Source of the DNA: Arthrobacter sp. SLBN-122
GTDB lineage: Bacteria; Actinomycetota; Actinomycetes; Actinomycetales; Micrococcaceae
Direction: 5' to 3'
Assembly (NCBI RefSeq): GCF_006715165.1
Contig: NZ_VFMS01000001.1
Span: 2,604,001 to 2,668,000 of the forward strand
Length of the DNA stretch: 64,000 nt
Shown here in pieces: positions 16,924 through 24,050 of this stretch. The notes below the pieces were generated by a model. That model searched no databases, was not told the origin of the DNA, and saw only the letters and a program-made list of their open reading frames with translations. Each line of letters opens with the position of its first letter. Position 1 is the first letter of the stretch. The translations under genes were made by a program, and so were the position numbers.

Positions 16924-16958
16924 TTGTTCAACAATACCTTGCCAAGATTGTTCAACAA
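16924..16958. promoter_or_regulatory. Two GntR-type operators TTGTTCAACAA
   Basis: The 11-bp palindrome TTGTTCAACAA occurs at 16924-16934 and again at 16948-16958, centres 24 bp apart, upstream of the NRAMP-like gene. The same palindrome, extended to ATTGTTCAACAAT, lies before pxpA at 24038-24050. FCD-type GntR proteins bind sites of this kind, and one is encoded at 19096-19764. The gap 16750-17007 holds nothing else I can support. Confidence 0.8.
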
Positions 16959-17007: not shown

Positions 17008-18240
17008 ATGGATGGAACCATGGCAGCAGAACCTGGCATCAAACTGAACCTAAGCACGTCCGCCCGCCGCACAGCGCTCCTTGGCGCCATGTTCCTCATG
17101 GCCACCAGTGCCATCGGACCGGGCTTCATCACCCAGACCACGGTGTTCACCGCCCAGATCGGGGCCGCGTTCGCGTTCGCGATCCTGGCCTCGATCCTGA
17201 TCGATGTGGCCGTGCAAATGAATGTCTGGCGCGTCATCGGCGTCACCGGGCTCCGGGCCCAGGAACTTGGCAACAAGGTCCTTCCCGGCATCGGCTGGCT
17301 TCTCTCCGGCCTGGTGTTCCTTGGCGGGGTGGTCTTCAATATCGGCAACATTGCCGGCACCGGCCTCGGAGCCAACGCCATGATGGGTGTGGATCCGAAG
17401 GTGGGCGGCATTGTCTCGGCCGTGGTCGCCATCCTGGTCTTCCTCAGCAAGAAAGCCGGCATGGCACTGGACCGGATCGTGGTGCTGCTGGGCGCCGTCA
17501 TGATCCTGCTGATGATCTACGTGGCCATCGTCGCCGCCCCGCCCCTGGGAGAGGCGCTGAAGAACACGTTCCTTCCCGAAAAGGTGGACTTCCTCATCAT
17601 TACCACCTTGGTGGGCGGCACCGTGGGCGGCTACATCACCTACGCCGGTGCCCACCGCATGCTCGACTCCGGCGCCACCGGCATCCGGCACGTCAAGGAG
17701 ATCACCCGCAGCTCCGTCCTGGGCATCCTGACCACCGGCCTGATGCGCGTGCTGCTCTTCCTGGCCATCCTCGGCGTCGTGGCCGGCGGGACCGTCCTCA
17801 CCAGCAGCAACATGGCGGCCGAAGCCTTCGGCGCGGCAGCCGGTGAAATCGGCCTCCGGATGTTCGGTGTGGTCCTTTGGGCCGCCGCCATCACCTCGGT
17901 GATCGGCGCAGCCTTCACCTCCGTCTCCTTCATCACCTCCTCCCGCACGCCCGAGCGCAAGCGGAACCTCATCACCGTCGCATTCATTGCCGGCTGCGCC
18001 ATCGTGTACTTCTTCCTCGGCCAGGCGCCCCAGCAGCTGCTGATCTTCGCCGGCGCCTTCAACGGACTGATCCTGCCGGTAGGCTTTGCGGTCCTGCTCT
18101 GGGTGGCCTGGCGCCGCCGCGACCTGATGCACGGCTACGCCTACCCCAAGTGGCTGCTCCTGGTCGGTACCGCCGCATGGCTCCTCACCGTGTTCCTCGG
18201 CTGGACCTCGCTCATGGGACTGGCAAAGCTGTGGGCATGA
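17008..18240 (+). CDS. NRAMP-like transporter (YcsG type) of the 5-oxoproline locus
   Basis: Integral membrane protein of 410 residues with about 11 helices; [17 protein letters not shown] marks the first NRAMP helix. In metal transporters this helix carries DPGN; here it reads GPGF, so metal transport is doubtful. The gene order matches Bacillus ycsG beside ycsI, ycsF and kipIA, which suggests uptake of 5-oxoproline or a related compound (inference). It overlaps the next gene by TGATG. ATG 17020 is an alternative start. Two operators lie 50-84 bp upstream. Confidence 0.82.
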
Positions 18241-19022
18241 TGGACCGCCCCAGCATCCTCCCCGCCGCAGCACGCGAAGCCTTCCGAGGCGGCCTGGTGG
18301 AACCGACGTCGGGCTGGTCCCGCGGGTACGCGCAGGCGAACGTGCTTGCCATTCCGCGGGACCACGCCTTCGATTTCCTGCTGTTCGCCCAGCGCAATCC
18401 CAAGCCGTGCCCCATCCTGGGCGTCCTCGAGCCCGGCGAGACCAGCGGCCCGCTGCTGGCAGGCGGGGACATCCGCACGGACGTGGCGAAGTACACGGTG
18501 TACCGCGACGGGGAGAAAGTGGATGAGCCCACCAACATCACAGACTACTGGCGTGATGACCTGGTGACGTTCCTGATCGGCTGTTCCTTCACCTTCGAGG
18601 CAGCCCTGCAGGACGGCGGCATAGGCATAGCCCACATCGAGCAGGGCGTGAACGTGCCGATGTACCGCACCAGCCGCCAGTGTGCCCCCGCCGGCACCAT
18701 GTCCGGTCCGTTGGTGGTCTCCATGCGCCCCGTCCCCGCCTCGCAGGTGGCCGACGCGGTCCGCATCACCTCCCGCTACCCGGCCGTGCACGGCGCGCCC
18801 GTCCACGTGGGCAACCCGCACGAACTGGGCATCAGCGACCTGGCCCGGCCGGACTTCGGGGATGCCGTGACTGTCCCGGATGGGCACATTCCGGTGTTCT
18901 GGGCCTGCGGCGTCACCCCGCAGGCTGCCGTGATGCAGTCACGCCCGCCGCTGGCCATCGGCCACGCCCCTGGCCACATGCTCATCACCGACGCGAGGGA
19001 CAGCGACTACCTGGTTCCGTGA
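18240..19022 (+). CDS. DUF1445 / D-glutamate cyclase family putative hydro-lyase (YcsI-like)
   Basis: Protein of 260 residues of the YcsI/DUF1445 family. Family blocks seen are [53 protein letters not shown] and [10 protein letters not shown]. The mammalian homologue region belongs to D-glutamate cyclase, which forms 5-oxo-D-proline from D-glutamate. Placement in a 5-oxoprolinase locus therefore makes sense: this enzyme may feed or drain 5-oxoproline. The start overlaps the stop of the transporter. The exact reaction here is not proven. Confidence 0.88.
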
Positions 19023-19095: not shown

Positions 19096-19764
19096 TCAGT
19101 GCCCCGGGCCGGCCAAGTGGCCCAGCAGTTCGGCCTCGGCGGCGTCGAGGTAGGTGCGCAGCCCGGCGGCAGCTTCCTCCCGTTCGCCTGCCCGGAGCCG
19201 CTTCACGAGCTCCACATTGCGCTCCACATAGTGGCTGTGGAAGTCGGGGGCCGAGGCCATGGCATAAAAGACAAGCCGCATCTCGGCGAGCACGCGGTCC
19301 ATCAGTTCCTGCAGGGTGCCGCTTCCCGTCAGGCCCACTACCGCCCGGTGGAGGGCCTGGTTGGCGTCTGCCATATCCATGACGGAACCGGCATTCCGGG
19401 CCGCCTGGGCGCGCTGGACGATGGCTTCCATCTCATCCAGGATCTGCGGCGAGAGCTCGCCCCAGAGCACGGCGGCGGGTTCGATGGTTCGGCGGATGCG
19501 GTAGATTTCCCGCACCTCCTCCGCGCCCGGCGACGCGACAAAGACGCCCCGGTTGGGAATATGGGTGACGATTGACTCGCCGGCAAGGATGGTGAAGGCC
19601 TGCCGCAGGGTGTTGCGGGAGACGCCCAGCGAGGTGGACAGGGATTGTTCGGACAGCTTGGACCCGGGGGTCAGCTCGCCCGCAGCGATGCGCCTGCGCA
19701 GAACGGACGCGATCCATGCCGTGGTGTGCGCGTGTTCCGCCGCACCGTGTGTCCCGCTGTCCAT
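19096..19764 (-). CDS. GntR-family regulator with FCD domain, likely 5-oxoproline-locus repressor
   Basis: Protein of 222 residues. The N-terminal winged helix (LRRRIAAGELTPGSKLSEQS, then LGVSRNTLRQAF) is the GntR DNA-binding domain. The all-helical FCD effector domain follows, with DANQALHRAVV and later HSHYVERN supplying likely metal or ligand residues. It lies inside the locus whose two outer promoters carry the same palindrome, so it is the best candidate to bind it. A different 13-bp inverted repeat (AACATCCGATGTT, 19786-19798) lies in front of its own start. The inducer is inferred to be 5-oxoproline or D-glutamate. Confidence 0.88.
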   Translation of the reverse strand: MDSGTHGAAEHAHTTAWIASVLRRRIAAGELTPGSKLSEQSLSTSLGVSRNTLRQAFTILAGESIVTHIPNRGVFVASPGAEEVREIYRIRRTIEPAAVLWGELSPQILDEMEAIVQRAQAARNAGSVMDMADANQALHRAVVGLTGSGTLQELMDRVLAEMRLVFYAMASAPDFHSHYVERNVELVKRLRAGEREEAAAGLRTYLDAAEAELLGHLAGPGH

Positions 19765-19796: not shown

Positions 19797-21545
19797 TTAG
19801 CTGACCGTCCCCAGCACCTCGCCACGGACAACGACGGCCCCCGGCGCCTGTTCGCCGCGGCGGAAGGTGCCGGCCGCGGAAGAGGCAACAACGGTCTCCA
19901 TTTTCATCGCCTCAACGACGGCGAGCGGCTGGTCGGCGCCAACTTCGGCGCCGTCGTCGGCCAGCCACTTGACCAGGTTGCCGCCCATGGGCGCCGTCAC
20001 CTTGCCGTTGGCCGCGTCACTGCCATGGCCGGCGGCCTCGCCTGCGCCGGCCGAAACAGCTCCGGCCCCTCCGTGCATGAGTGCGGCATAAACCTCTGCG
20101 GGCAGTCCCAGCTGGACAGCCTTGCCGTCGATTTCCACGGTAAGGGTTTCGCGCCGCGCCACGGGTCCCGCAACGCCGCTCTTCAGCGAGGCCGCCAACC
20201 GGCCGGAGAACTCTGATTCGATCCAGGTGGTGTAGACGCCCAGCCGGTCCGGTGCCGTGAAATCCGGGTCCCGCACCACGGCGCGGTGGAACGGGACCAC
20301 CGTGGGCACGCCTTCGATCCGCAGTTCGTCCAGGGCGGCACGGGCACGGCGCAGCGCCTGCGCCCGGTCCTCGCCGCGGACGATCAGCTTGGCCATCAGG
20401 GAGTCGTACTCGGCAGGGACGACCGAGCCGGAACGGACCCCGGAGTCCACGCGGATGCCGGGGCCGGTGGGTGCTTCGAACACGTCCACGGGGCCGGGGG
20501 AGGGCAGGAAGCCACGGCCGGCGTCCTCGGCGTTCAACCGGAACTCGATGGCGTGGCCGGTGGGCTCTGGATCCTCGGTGATGGAGAGCGGCAGCCCGGC
20601 AGCAATCCGGAACTGTTCGCGCACCAGATCGATGCCGGAGGTTTCCTCGGTAACCGGGTGCTCCACCTGGAGGCGGGTATTGACCTCGAGGAAGGAGATG
20701 ACGCCGTCAGGTGCCACCAGGTACTCCACGGTGCCTGCTCCGGTGTAGCCGGCTTCCCGGCAGATGGCGCGGGCGGATTCGTGGATGCGGCTGCGCTGCT
20801 TCGGCGTGAGGAACGGTGCGGGTGCTTCCTCCACCAGCTTCTGGTTGCGCCGCTGGAGGGAGCAGTCACGGGTGCCCACCACCACCACATTTCCGTGCGT
20901 GTCCGCGATGACCTGGGCTTCGACGTGGCGGGGCCGGTCCAGGAAGCGTTCCACGAAGCATTCGCCGCGGCCGAACGCCACGGTCGCCTCACGCACCGCC
21001 GATTCGAAGGCATCGTCGATGTCCTCCATCCGGTAGGCGATCTTCAGGCCGCGGCCGCCGCCGCCGAAGGCCGCCTTGATGGCCACCGGAACGCCGTACT
21101 CCGCGGCGAACGCGCGGACCTCGTCCGCGTTAGCGGCAGGCCCGTCCGAGCCGGGCACCAGCGGGGCGCCGGCCCGGACGGCAATGTCCCGCGCCGTCAC
21201 CTTGTTGCCCAGGCTCCGGATGGCTTCCGGTGACGGGCCCACCCAGGTGAGTCCGGCGTCGAGCACTGCCTGCGCGAAGTCGGCGTTCTCGGACAGGAAG
21301 CCGTAGCCGGGGTGGACGGCGTCGGCACCGGCGCGGGCCGCGACGGCAAGGAGCTTTTCGATGTTCAGGTACGTCTCCGAACTGGCGGAGCCGTTCAATC
21401 CGTAGGCCTCGTCGCTGAGGCGCACGTGCAGGGCGTCGGCGTCGGGATCCGAGTAGACGGCAACGGATGCCAGGCCTGCATCAGCGCAGGCGCGGGCGAC
21501 GCGGACGGCGATCTCACCGCGGTTGGCGATCAGGACTTTTTTCAT
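19797..21545 (-). CDS. Biotin carboxylase fused to biotin carboxyl carrier domain
   Basis: Protein of 582 residues. It has an AccC-type biotin carboxylase with N-terminal [13 protein letters not shown], the ATP-grasp glycine-rich loop AAFGGGGRG and [18 protein letters not shown]. The C-terminal carrier domain has the biotinylation motif EAMKM, with the target Lys about residue 548. It is followed 11 nt later by the KipI-KipA fusion. No acetyl- or acyl-CoA carboxyltransferase gene is present. The carboxyltransferase domain of urea carboxylase is itself KipA/KipI-like, so the partner is probably the next protein (inference). Start ATG 21545; a longer upstream frame overlaps the neighbour. Confidence 0.92.
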
Positions 21546-21556
21546 GGCTGCTTCTT

Positions 21557-23230
21557 TCACAGGCTGTTTGTGGCAGGCGTGGGAGTGGTGGGTTCTGGCT
21601 GCTGCAGGGCCCCGGGCCCGAGCGGCTCCATGGTTCCCGGATCCACGGCCTGGAACCGGATGAGGGCACCGGGCGGGAGCTGCGCCGCCACCGGCAGGTC
21701 TTCCGGAACGACGACGGCGATCACCGGGTAGCCGCCGGTCACGGGGTGGTCGGCAAGGAAAAGGACGGGAAGGCCCGACGGCGGTACCTGCAGTGAGCCG
21801 GCTACCACGCCTTCGCTGGGCAGTTCCTCCGGCCGCGAGCGTTCCAGCGGCATCCCTCCGGCTGTTGTGTCCAGCCGTACGCCGATGCGGTTGGATTCGG
21901 CGGTGGCGGTCCAATCCTGCCCGGTCAAAGCCTGGAGGGACTGCGGGGTGAACCAGTCATCGCGGGGCCCGGGGGTGACCCGAAGCACCACGGTGGCATT
22001 GCCGGCCCCGCCCCCGCTGAGGGCCGGATGCAGGGTGGGCGGTTCGGGCTGGCCCACCACGCGGCCCTGGTCTGCCGGGCCGATGGGCAGCACGGTTCCG
22101 GCGGCCAGCGGAGCCGGTCCGATCCCGGACATCAGATCGGTGGACCGGCTGCCAAGCACTGGAGGCACGTCGATTCCGCCGCGGACGGCAAGGTAGGTGC
22201 GCAGGCCTGCGTCGGGGGTGCCGAGGTGGAGGCTGTCGCCGTCGTGCAGTGGGAAGGGGGCGTACATCGGGGCCGGGCGGCTGCTGCCGCCGGAGCGGAT
22301 TTCGGCCCCTGCGGGGGCGCCGGTGAGCGCGGCCGTCAGTTCACCGCGAGCCTGTACCGACAGGCCGCCCAGGACGGTTTCGAGCACGGCGTCGCCCGGC
22401 GGGTTTCCCACCAGCCGGTTCGCCTGGCGGGCGCCCGCGGCGTCGGCAGCGCCTGCAGGGGAGACACCCAGGTCGCCATAGCCGGGGCGGCCAAGGTCCT
22501 GGATGAGAGACTGCGGGCCGGGCGTGATGATCTCGATGGCGGGGCCGGAGGCCCGCGCGCCGGCAGGGGTGTCCTGCTGTCCGGCGGGTTCGGTGATTTC
22601 CACGACTTCCCGCACTGCGACATACCGGACGGTGCTGCCGGGCCGGAGGAGGGCTGGCTGTTCACGGCCCAGGTCCCACATCCGCGCTGCGGTGCGGCCG
22701 ATCAGCTGCCAGCCGCCAGGGGAGCGCCGCGGGTAGACGGCGGAGAAGTTGCCGGCCAGGGCCACGGATCCGGCGGGAACGGCGGTCCTTGGCGAGCTGC
22801 GCCGCGGAACGTTCAATGCATCGTGCTCGCCTACCAGGTAGGCGAAGCCGGGGGCGAACCCGCCGAACGCCGCTGTCCACAGCTGCCCGGTGTGGGCGGC
22901 GATCACGCCGTCGGCGCCCAGCCCGGTCAGCCTGCCAACGTCGGCGAGGTCGTCGCCGTCGTACACCACCTCAATCCTGACGGGCTCGGAACCGGTGTGG
23001 CCCACCGCCGCCGCGTCCCTGTCCAGCATGGCGACGGCGGCATGGGCCGCCTGTGCCGACGCGCGGGAGTCGAAGACGGCCAGGACGGTCCGTGCGGCGG
23101 CCAGGACATCCACCTGGCCGGGCAGGGGCGCCTCCTGCAACCGGGCGTGGACGGTCAGAACCGTGTCCAGGGAGTCGAGTTCGAGGAGGAGGGCGCGCGG
23201 GCCGGCCCAGCGGATGTGGAGGGGGCTCAC
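21557..23230 (-). CDS. PxpB-PxpC (KipI-KipA) fusion, 5-oxoprolinase / urea-amidolyase family
   Basis: Protein of 557 residues joining KipI/AHS1 (about 1-215, [20 protein letters not shown] and [19 protein letters not shown]) to KipA/AHS2 (about 230-540, [20 protein letters not shown]). In Bacillus and E. coli these are separate proteins, PxpB and PxpC, which with PxpA hydrolyse 5-oxoproline to glutamate using ATP. The short Ala/Gly linker at about 215-230 marks the fusion point. The GTG/ATG region overlaps the pxpA stop by 4 nt, so the complex is made from coupled genes. Confidence 0.92.
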
Positions 23231-23985
23231 ACGAAGCTCCGGATTTCCACGCCGGCGGCTTCCAGTTCCCGCCGGACGGCGGCGGCCATGGACACGGCGC
23301 CGGCGGTGTCACCGTGAAGGCAGATGCTCTCCGCTTCCGCCTTGATGGTGGACCCGTCCCGGGCGATGATGGTCCCCGCCGTGGCAAGCCGGACCATGTT
23401 GGCGGCGACGGCGTCTTCGTCGTGGAGGACGGCGCCGGCCTCGCGCCGGGAAACCAGGGTGCCGTCGGGGTTGTAGGCGCGGTCGGCGAAGGCTTCGGCC
23501 ACGCCGCGGAGCCCGGCGGCTTCGGCTCGGGCCAGTGCCACGGAGCCGGGGAGCAGGAGCAGCGGCAGGTCGCCGCCGAACGCCTTGACCGCGTCGACGA
23601 CGGCCTGGGCATGCGTTTCGTGGGTCACGATGGTGTTGTAGAGGGCGCCGTGCGGCTTGACGTACTGGATGCGGCCGCCGGCGGAGGTGGCCAGTGCGCT
23701 GAGGGCGCCCAGCTGGTAGAGCACGTCATCCGCCAGTTCCGTGGCGGAGCAGTCCAGGAACCGGCGGCCGAACCCGGCAAGGTCGCGGTAGCCCACGTGT
23801 GCACCGATGACGACGCCGGCCGCGACGGCATCCCGGCACGTGCGGGCGATGGTGGAGGGGTCCCCGGCGTGGAAGCCGCAGGCGACGTTGGCGCTGGAGA
23901 CTGAGCGGAAGATTGCTGCGTCATCGCCCATGGTCCAGTTGCCGAAGGATTCCCCGACGTCGCTGTTGAGGTCAATGAAGGCCAT
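23227..23985 (-). CDS. pxpA: 5-oxoprolinase subunit A (LamB/YcsF family)
   Basis: Cytoplasmic 252-residue protein with the LamB/YcsF signature: [14 protein letters not shown] at the start, [26 protein letters not shown] and ICLHGD. It is the ring-opening partner of PxpBC in ATP-dependent 5-oxoproline hydrolysis. It is the first gene of the minus-strand unit pxpA, pxpBC fusion, biotin carboxylase, gntR. Its promoter has the GntR palindrome and its leader has a hairpin next to the start codon. Confidence 0.95.
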
Positions 23986-24037: not shown

Positions 24038-24050
24038 ATTGTTCAACAAT
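24038..24050. promoter_or_regulatory. GntR-type operator ATTGTTCAACAAT upstream of pxpA
   Basis: A perfect 13-bp palindrome around a central C lies 53-65 bp upstream of pxpA. It matches the two sites at 16924-16958 in its 11-bp core. The same regulator therefore probably controls both outer promoters of the locus. Confidence 0.82.

Follow-up and report, generated by a model that had tools for sequence, protein, structure and literature searches.

Genes and operators of the pxp locus

The window analysed here, a stretch of 64,000 nucleotides from Arthrobacter sp. SLBN-122, covers bases 2604001-2668000 of a genome that consists of a single 4.47-Mb contig. At about 2.62 Mb it carries a pxp locus, in which the genes for PxpA, for a PxpB-PxpC (KipI-KipA) fusion and for a biotin carboxylase (BC) joined to a biotin carboxyl carrier protein (BCCP) follow one another on the same strand. 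This core comprises the following features (aa, amino acids):

23227..23985, minus strand: PxpA (LamB/YcsF), 252 aa; Pfam PF03746, E 5.7e-98; NCBIfam PxpA subfamily NF003814, 355.7 bits for a cut-off of 226.
21557..23230, minus strand: PxpB-PxpC fusion, 557 aa, candidate carboxyltransferase (Pfam, structure model); in a single frame, CT_C_D at aa 5-195 (E 1.2e-54) and CT_A_B at aa 254-527 (E 7.4e-84) (Pfam).
19797..21542, minus strand: BC-BCCP, 581 aa, AccA3-type (Pfam, best PDB match AccA3, tree); in one frame, Biotin_carb_N, CPSase_L_D2, Biotin_carb_C and Biotin_lipoyl (Pfam).
19902..19904, minus strand: codon of Lys547, the predicted biotin attachment lysine of EAMKM (coordinate computed from the motif position).

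The PxpA and fusion genes overlap by 4 nt, and 14 nt separate the fusion from the BC gene, whose start was set at 21542; the open-reading-frame list places the start of this frame too far upstream. PxpA, CT_C_D (PxpB) and CT_A_B (PxpC) all score above the Pfam cut-offs. The tight unit of BC-BCCP, KipI-KipA fusion and PxpA described in an earlier note on this DNA is borne out by these Pfam and NCBIfam domains and by the 4-nt and 14-nt spacing, and its claim that no other carboxyltransferase is present holds at the locus. Elsewhere, the genome has three Carboxyl_trans genes (2.16, 3.38 and 3.50 Mb, the nearest about 460 kb from the locus), and a complete urea carboxylase with allophanate hydrolase is found at 2.20-2.21 Mb.

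A genome-wide pattern search predicted three operators, none of which is assigned to a strand:

16924..16934: predicted operator TTGTTCAACAA, before the transporter gene.
16948..16958: predicted second operator, 24 bp farther.
24039..24049: predicted operator upstream of pxpA.

These are the only sites for TTGTTCAACAA in the whole genome, and all of them flank the pxp locus. The pattern is the core of the operator 5'-agattgttcaacaatct-3', through which the GntR-type repressor PxpR controls pxpTABC in C. glutamicum (PMC13274462; this paper and PMC8453981, PMC6061476, PMC5407890, PMC5770610 and PMC12427679 are cited throughout from excerpts). According to the same excerpts, altering or deleting this operator raised a reporter 6.5-fold, and PxpR binds 5-oxo-L-proline, with no binding of glutamate, glutamine, proline or aspartate under the same conditions. 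With at most one mismatch, TTGTTCAACAA gave 105 matches in 69 of 86 related loci, compared with 13 matches for the reversed pattern (the loci are not independent). The operator often precedes pxpA by about 60 bases in actinobacteria, and in Proteobacteria it often lies ahead of the transporter gene. As the PxpR operator core stands only at this locus, the substrate is, on sequence evidence, very probably 5-oxoproline, which agrees with the substrate named in the earlier note, and the GntR protein of the window would be expected to bind it.

The operator sites also tie an Nramp-like transporter and a D-glutamate-cyclase-family gene to the pxpA-fusion-BC unit. The regulator gene follows the BC-BCCP gene on the same strand, and the other two genes face toward it; none of the three is mentioned in the earlier note:

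19096..19764, minus strand: GntR/FCD regulator, probable PxpR (Pfam GntR at aa 18-76, FCD at aa 86-207; layout as in C. glutamicum PxpR).
17008..18240, plus strand: Nramp-like transporter (PxpT/YcsG-like); Pfam Nramp, E 1.1e-24; NCBIfam Nramp_1, 24 bits for a cut-off of 50.
18240..19022, plus strand: D-glutamate cyclase family protein (YcsI-like), 260 aa; Pfam PF07286, E 5.1e-67.

With the PxpABC systems of E. coli (pxpBCA), B. subtilis (ycsF-kipI-kipA) and C. glutamicum (pxpTABC/pxpR), the locus has in common the PxpA, PxpB and PxpC domains, as well as the Nramp-like transporter, the GntR repressor operator and the cyclase family gene. It differs from them in that PxpB and PxpC are fused and a BC-BCCP is part of the operon, whereas E. 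coli K-12 has no BC-BCCP beside pxpBCA. The locus is a variant of the known PxpABC enzyme system, with an unexpected proposed mechanism. In the Nramp-like protein, GPGF was seen by eye at the position of DPGN, the motif of metal-transporting Nramps, and the protein lies below the NCBIfam Nramp cut-off. This bears on the cargo of PxpT/YcsG, given as 5-oxoproline (PMC13274462) or as Mn2+ (PMC10448178).

Kinship of the fusion and of the biotin carboxylase

The structure model of the fusion has a predicted local distance difference test (pLDDT) score of 92.4 and matches 3mml, 3oep, 5dud and 5i8i. The fusion scores below the NCBIfam equivalog cut-offs (PxpC_5OPro, 171.3 bits vs 500; TIGR00370 PxpB, 120.6 vs 145.55) and passes the wider domain model TIGR00724 (262.6 over 230.2). 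In a CT_A_B tree of 153 rows, built by a quick method, 81 fused rows form one clade among the split actinobacterial PxpC proteins (Shimodaira-Hasegawa-like approximate likelihood ratio test, SH-aLRT, 99), with the urea carboxylases in a separate clade. Two fused rows, L165 and L176, fall outside the main fused clade (L-numbers are labels of fetched loci). A careful tree of 46 rows also places its 12 fused rows together (92/97). The alignment in which BC-linked and BC-less fusions were compared was made without L061 (entered as E. coli), L082, unchanged L089-type rows, L100, L160, L189, L200 and L201, and without four urea-carboxylase candidates, which did not carry the search motif.

Arg143 of the fusion aligns with the catalytic lysine of urea carboxylase, which is Lys1605 in K. 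lactis numbering (PMC5770610) and was located in the alignment by counting. The score with the single-chain urea_carbox model is 154.3 bits for a cut-off of 1303.85. Together with the separate tree clade, this score and the arginine in place of the lysine rule out a split urea carboxylase. The earlier note had described the fusion as a urea-carboxylase-like part; judged by its sequence, it is instead a member of the PxpBC family.

A PxpBC lineage made up of L187, L191-L199 and L262 groups with urea carboxylase in CT_A_B trees (97; 87/88 with L262) and retains PxpA and a BC. It is possibly a relic of a route from PxpBC to urea carboxylase or the reverse. The genome of the window also has a second, split PxpA-PxpB-PxpC-like set (L015:7555-10147, about 3.8606-3.8631 Mb), in which LGAPAGSPMM replaces the GFAPGFAYL motif of PxpB and PxpC is a long branch; this set probably acts on another substrate. 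A third PxpA (PF03746) lies at L016:6963-7712 (about 2.407 Mb), with no genomic CT_A_B match nearby.

The BC-BCCP retains 13 of the 14 catalytic residues listed for E. coli AccC, and the biotin motif AMKM is present with Lys547 as the predicted attachment site. The fourteenth residue, at the position of His236, is Asn; both His and Asn are usual at this position (PMC5407890). Among the BCs of related cassettes, that is, loci with PxpA, fusion and BC-BCCP, 13 checked residues and the biotin motif are kept in 68 of 70. In a quick tree of 114 rows, from which BC pieces shorter than 430 aa were left out, the cassette BC is placed beside actinobacterial AccA3 (support 100), and the BCs sampled from AccC-type, pyruvate, methylcrotonyl-type and urea carboxylases fall elsewhere. 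A second AccA3-type protein of the same genome is 56% identical to the BC-BCCP of the locus. On the quick tree the cassette trait needs two changes, which is compatible with a single origin of the cassette BC; in a careful tree of 27 rows, the pair of proteobacterial cassette BCs is placed with AccA3 (95/85) and not with the BC of the window. Both the BC tree and the tree of the carboxyltransferase-fold protein (CT; KipI-KipA type, CT_C_D/CT_A_B) contain the same groups of alpha-, beta- and gammaproteobacteria, but the branching order differs between the two. Fusions that lack a BC are scattered in the tree, which fits repeated loss of the BC.

The biotin carboxylase in other pxp operons

Of 590 confirmed loci in named genomes, the 80 that best match the fusion were aligned and surveyed for the cassette, with frame starts set by rule. 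BC and PxpA stand beside the CT in 66 of these loci, which speaks against a chance arrangement, PxpA alone in 12 and neither in two. Seventy-six loci are fused, and a BC is present in 36/36 proteobacterial and 30/40 actinobacterial ones (Fisher p 0.0012, phylogeny not corrected for); the four split loci are actinobacterial and BC-less. A 4-nt overlap between the fusion frame and the BC frame occurs in 25 of the 66 BC-linked loci. Annotated plasmids from Klebsiella, Aureimonas, Thioclava and Shinella each carry GntR, PxpA, fusion and BC-BCCP genes, with an Nramp gene in three and a hydro-lyase (cyclase family) gene in two.

Co-occurrence was searched in the class of the genome of L096 (Pseudomonas; 321 genomes) and in that of L128 (Ciceribacter; 385 genomes). 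Three to four candidates were scored per genome at E<=1e-60 for the CT and E<=1e-170 for the AccA3-type BC, thresholds that were chosen after the search of the genomes of BC-less loci. As both centres had been picked as known carriers, the independent set comprises 704 genomes. In the L096 class, this CT type and the AccA3-type BC occur in the same four genomes, adjacent to each other, three of them besides the centre. The independent result is thus 3/3 among 704 genomes, all in the L096 class, with a chance of 1.7e-8 under independent draws, relatedness uncorrected. One of the three carriers, L255, has PxpB and PxpC in different frames, which indicates that the fusion is not essential.

On sequence evidence, BCs of other lineages have joined pxp operons several times, in at least three lineages besides the cassette. 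A second sample, taken within the phylum of the window, gave a CT match in 69 of 296 genomes, and loci were fetched from 60, that is, all but the window's own genome and eight others. Six loci of one family in this sample, e.g. L152, have the order pxpB-pxpC-BCCP-BC-cyclase-pxpA; the BCCP motif is present in 6/6, Pfam was checked for L152, and L185 has no pxpA in the fetched stretch. A Lactiplantibacillus plantarum plasmid (L258:4159-12420) has pxpB-pxpC-BCCP-BC-hydro-lyase-pxpA-Nramp between transposase genes and is a mobile form of the system. In Rhizobium and Allorhizobium, BCCP-BC stands ahead of pxpB, and the order in R. leguminosarum is pxpA-BCCP-BC-pxpB-pxpC. Among 15 hand-picked plasmid pxp loci, ten have a BC and five do not. 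In the careful tree, seven BC rows of such operons fall in at least three separate places, with the cassette as a fourth, and the CT and BC trees show the same pairings (L258 with the six-locus family, L058 with L261, and L262 with family f18).

A physical link is given by PDB 9yx5, entitled 'long chain acyl-CoA carboxylase complex from M. smegmatis with MSMEG_0435-MSMEG_0436 bound', in which a KipI-KipA pair is bound to a carboxylase that contains AccA3. Mycobacterium-type KipI/KipA pairs are also found at L129, L158 and L161-L163, with no PxpA or BC in the fetched stretch. Because of the co-occurrence (3/704), the other BC lineages in pxp operons and the 9yx5 complex, the partnership of the BC-BCCP with PxpA and the fusion is likely to be real. 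That the three belong together, as the earlier note held, is supported by the conserved cassette, the co-occurrence and the shared operator.

We found no report in the open-licence literature of a role for BC/BCCP with PxpBC; an extra BC and BCCP copy and a pxpB-pxpC pair are reported for Lactiplantibacillus pentosus and are not connected in the excerpts of PMC12427679. The Pseudomonas cassettes have a predicted BC-BCCP of 60.6-62.1 kDa and a fusion of 55.6-60.0 kDa. As the sizes given for Meister's two-component 5-oxoprolinase of P. putida disagree (64+51 and 82 kDa in PMC8453981; 75 and 63 kDa in PMC6061476), its identity with this enzyme stays a lead only.

Proposed mechanism and alternatives

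We propose that the locus is an operon of PxpR type, controlled by 5-oxoproline, which encodes a biotin-dependent variant of the prokaryotic 5-oxoprolinase, in which carboxybiotin activates the lactam and PxpA hydrolyses it; the probability of this reading is roughly 0.52. The AccA3-type BC-BCCP would use ATP and bicarbonate to load CO2 onto its biotin, and the fusion would act as a carboxyltransferase, as the earlier note also suggested, passing CO2 to 5-oxoproline, most likely at the lactam nitrogen. The carboxylated ring amide would become imide-like, PxpA would hydrolyse the activated ring, and the resulting N-carboxyglutamate would lose CO2 to yield glutamate. The scheme has the same logic as the sequence of urea carboxylase and allophanate hydrolase, but is made from PxpABC parts. 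Urea amidolyase likewise combines BC, BCCP and CT_A_B/CT_C_D domains with an amide hydrolase; in contrast, the locus has separate chains, a CT of another clade that lacks the catalytic lysine, and PxpA in place of allophanate hydrolase. The AccA3 acyl-CoA carboxylases have the same BC-BCCP architecture and the closest BC kin, and one of them binds KipI-KipA in 9yx5, whereas the locus has no AccD and its CT fold is that of KipI-KipA. The eukaryote-type 5-oxoprolinase/hydantoinase/caprolactamase family also opens lactams with ATP, but its proteins are unrelated, and Pfam found no hydantoinase domain in PxpA, the fusion or the BC-BCCP.

Several observations weigh against this proposal. Niehaus et al. 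(2017) reportedly obtained 5-oxoprolinase activity from recombinant B. subtilis PxpA, PxpB and PxpC, a BC-less set; for a BC-linked enzyme, we know of no activity test of PxpA and PxpBC without the biotin protein. C. glutamicum requires pxpTABC, and the excerpts of PMC13274462 name no BC; co-purified PxpB and PxpC hydrolyse ATP (PMC8453981). The arginine at the catalytic lysine position also occurs in representative PxpBs, and no residue in the viewed part of the alignment separates BC-linked from BC-less fusions. A BC is lacking at 10 of the 40 actinobacterial fused loci, and in the phylum of the window most sampled loci are not linked to a BC, with a same-strand BC within 3.5 kb at only 7 of the 60 CT loci of the phylum sample (10 more have one within 9 kb in either direction). 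Among the 385 genomes of the L128 class, CT and BC were found only in the centre. Two Frigoribacterium loci (L118:9650-11185 and L119:9710-11257) have a cassette BC without the biotin motif and with three altered catalytic residues, which is possibly decayed or repurposed, and the binding in 9yx5 may be non-catalytic.

The first alternative is an ordinary ATP-dependent PxpABC, with phosphorylation of the lactam by PxpBC and ring opening by PxpA; the BC-BCCP would be an accessory that binds PxpBC and regulates or stabilises it, without CO2 transfer to 5-oxoproline. In its favour, the PxpBC motifs of the representatives are identical with and without a BC, BC-less fused relatives such as L074 stand under the same operator, and L118 and L119 retain degenerate BCs. 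Phosphorylation of 5-oxoproline by PxpBC is what PMC13274462 assumes, and is called an assumption there. An inert accessory, however, leaves unexplained why 68/70 cassette BCs have preserved their catalytic residues and biotin motif and why several BC lineages joined pxp operons; we consider this alternative rather unlikely.

A broader form of the proposal, in which PxpB-PxpC is a carboxyltransferase in general, appears improbable. Every 5-oxoprolinase of this type would then work via transient biotin-dependent carboxylation, with BC-less loci borrowing AccA3, AccBC or AccB-AccC, and 9yx5 would be a snapshot of such borrowing. Nine of the ten BC-less fused loci lie in searchable genomes (L076 excepted), and no hidden cassette-type BC was found in these nine. 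Eight of them have an AccA3-like protein as their closest BC-BCCP (55-60% identity), and the genome of L093 has none above 52% identity. Borrowing of AccA3 is thus possible there in principle.

It is quite doubtful that the BC-BCCP and the fusion carboxylate another substrate of the pathway, e.g. 5-oxo-D-proline or another lactam or amide, with PxpA acting on the product. The D-glutamate-cyclase-family gene does belong to the regulon, and in the 80-locus set this family lies within 9 kb in 33/66 BC-linked vs 2/14 BC-less loci; yet it also occurs near BC-less pxp loci (6/43 in the phylum sample), and PxpR, the repressor to which this operator belongs, binds 5-oxo-L-proline (PMC13274462). It is most unlikely that the BC-BCCP is a surplus AccA3 subunit of acyl-CoA carboxylases that merely happens to be encoded in this operon. 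PDB match and tree do make it an AccA3 relative, AccA3 is shared by several AccD partners (PMC5407890), and the genome has Carboxyl_trans genes outside the locus; but the other AccA3-type protein, 56% identical, is already present, the AccA3-type BC-BCCP stands solely beside this CT type in the searched proteobacterial genomes, the cassette carries a PxpR-type operator, and AccD (Carboxyl_trans) is absent from the locus, which lowers this reading without excluding it, since AccD need not adjoin.

If the BC-linked PxpBC is a carboxyltransferase, as we propose, the enzyme would hydrolyse a lactam with the help of biotin and would be the counterpart of urea carboxylase with allophanate hydrolase. 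This would explain why KipI-KipA shares the carboxyltransferase fold, and 'extra' BC/BCCP genes that are now annotated as acetyl-CoA carboxylase would have a function. The recycling of 5-oxoproline would then acquire a demand for biotin and bicarbonate.

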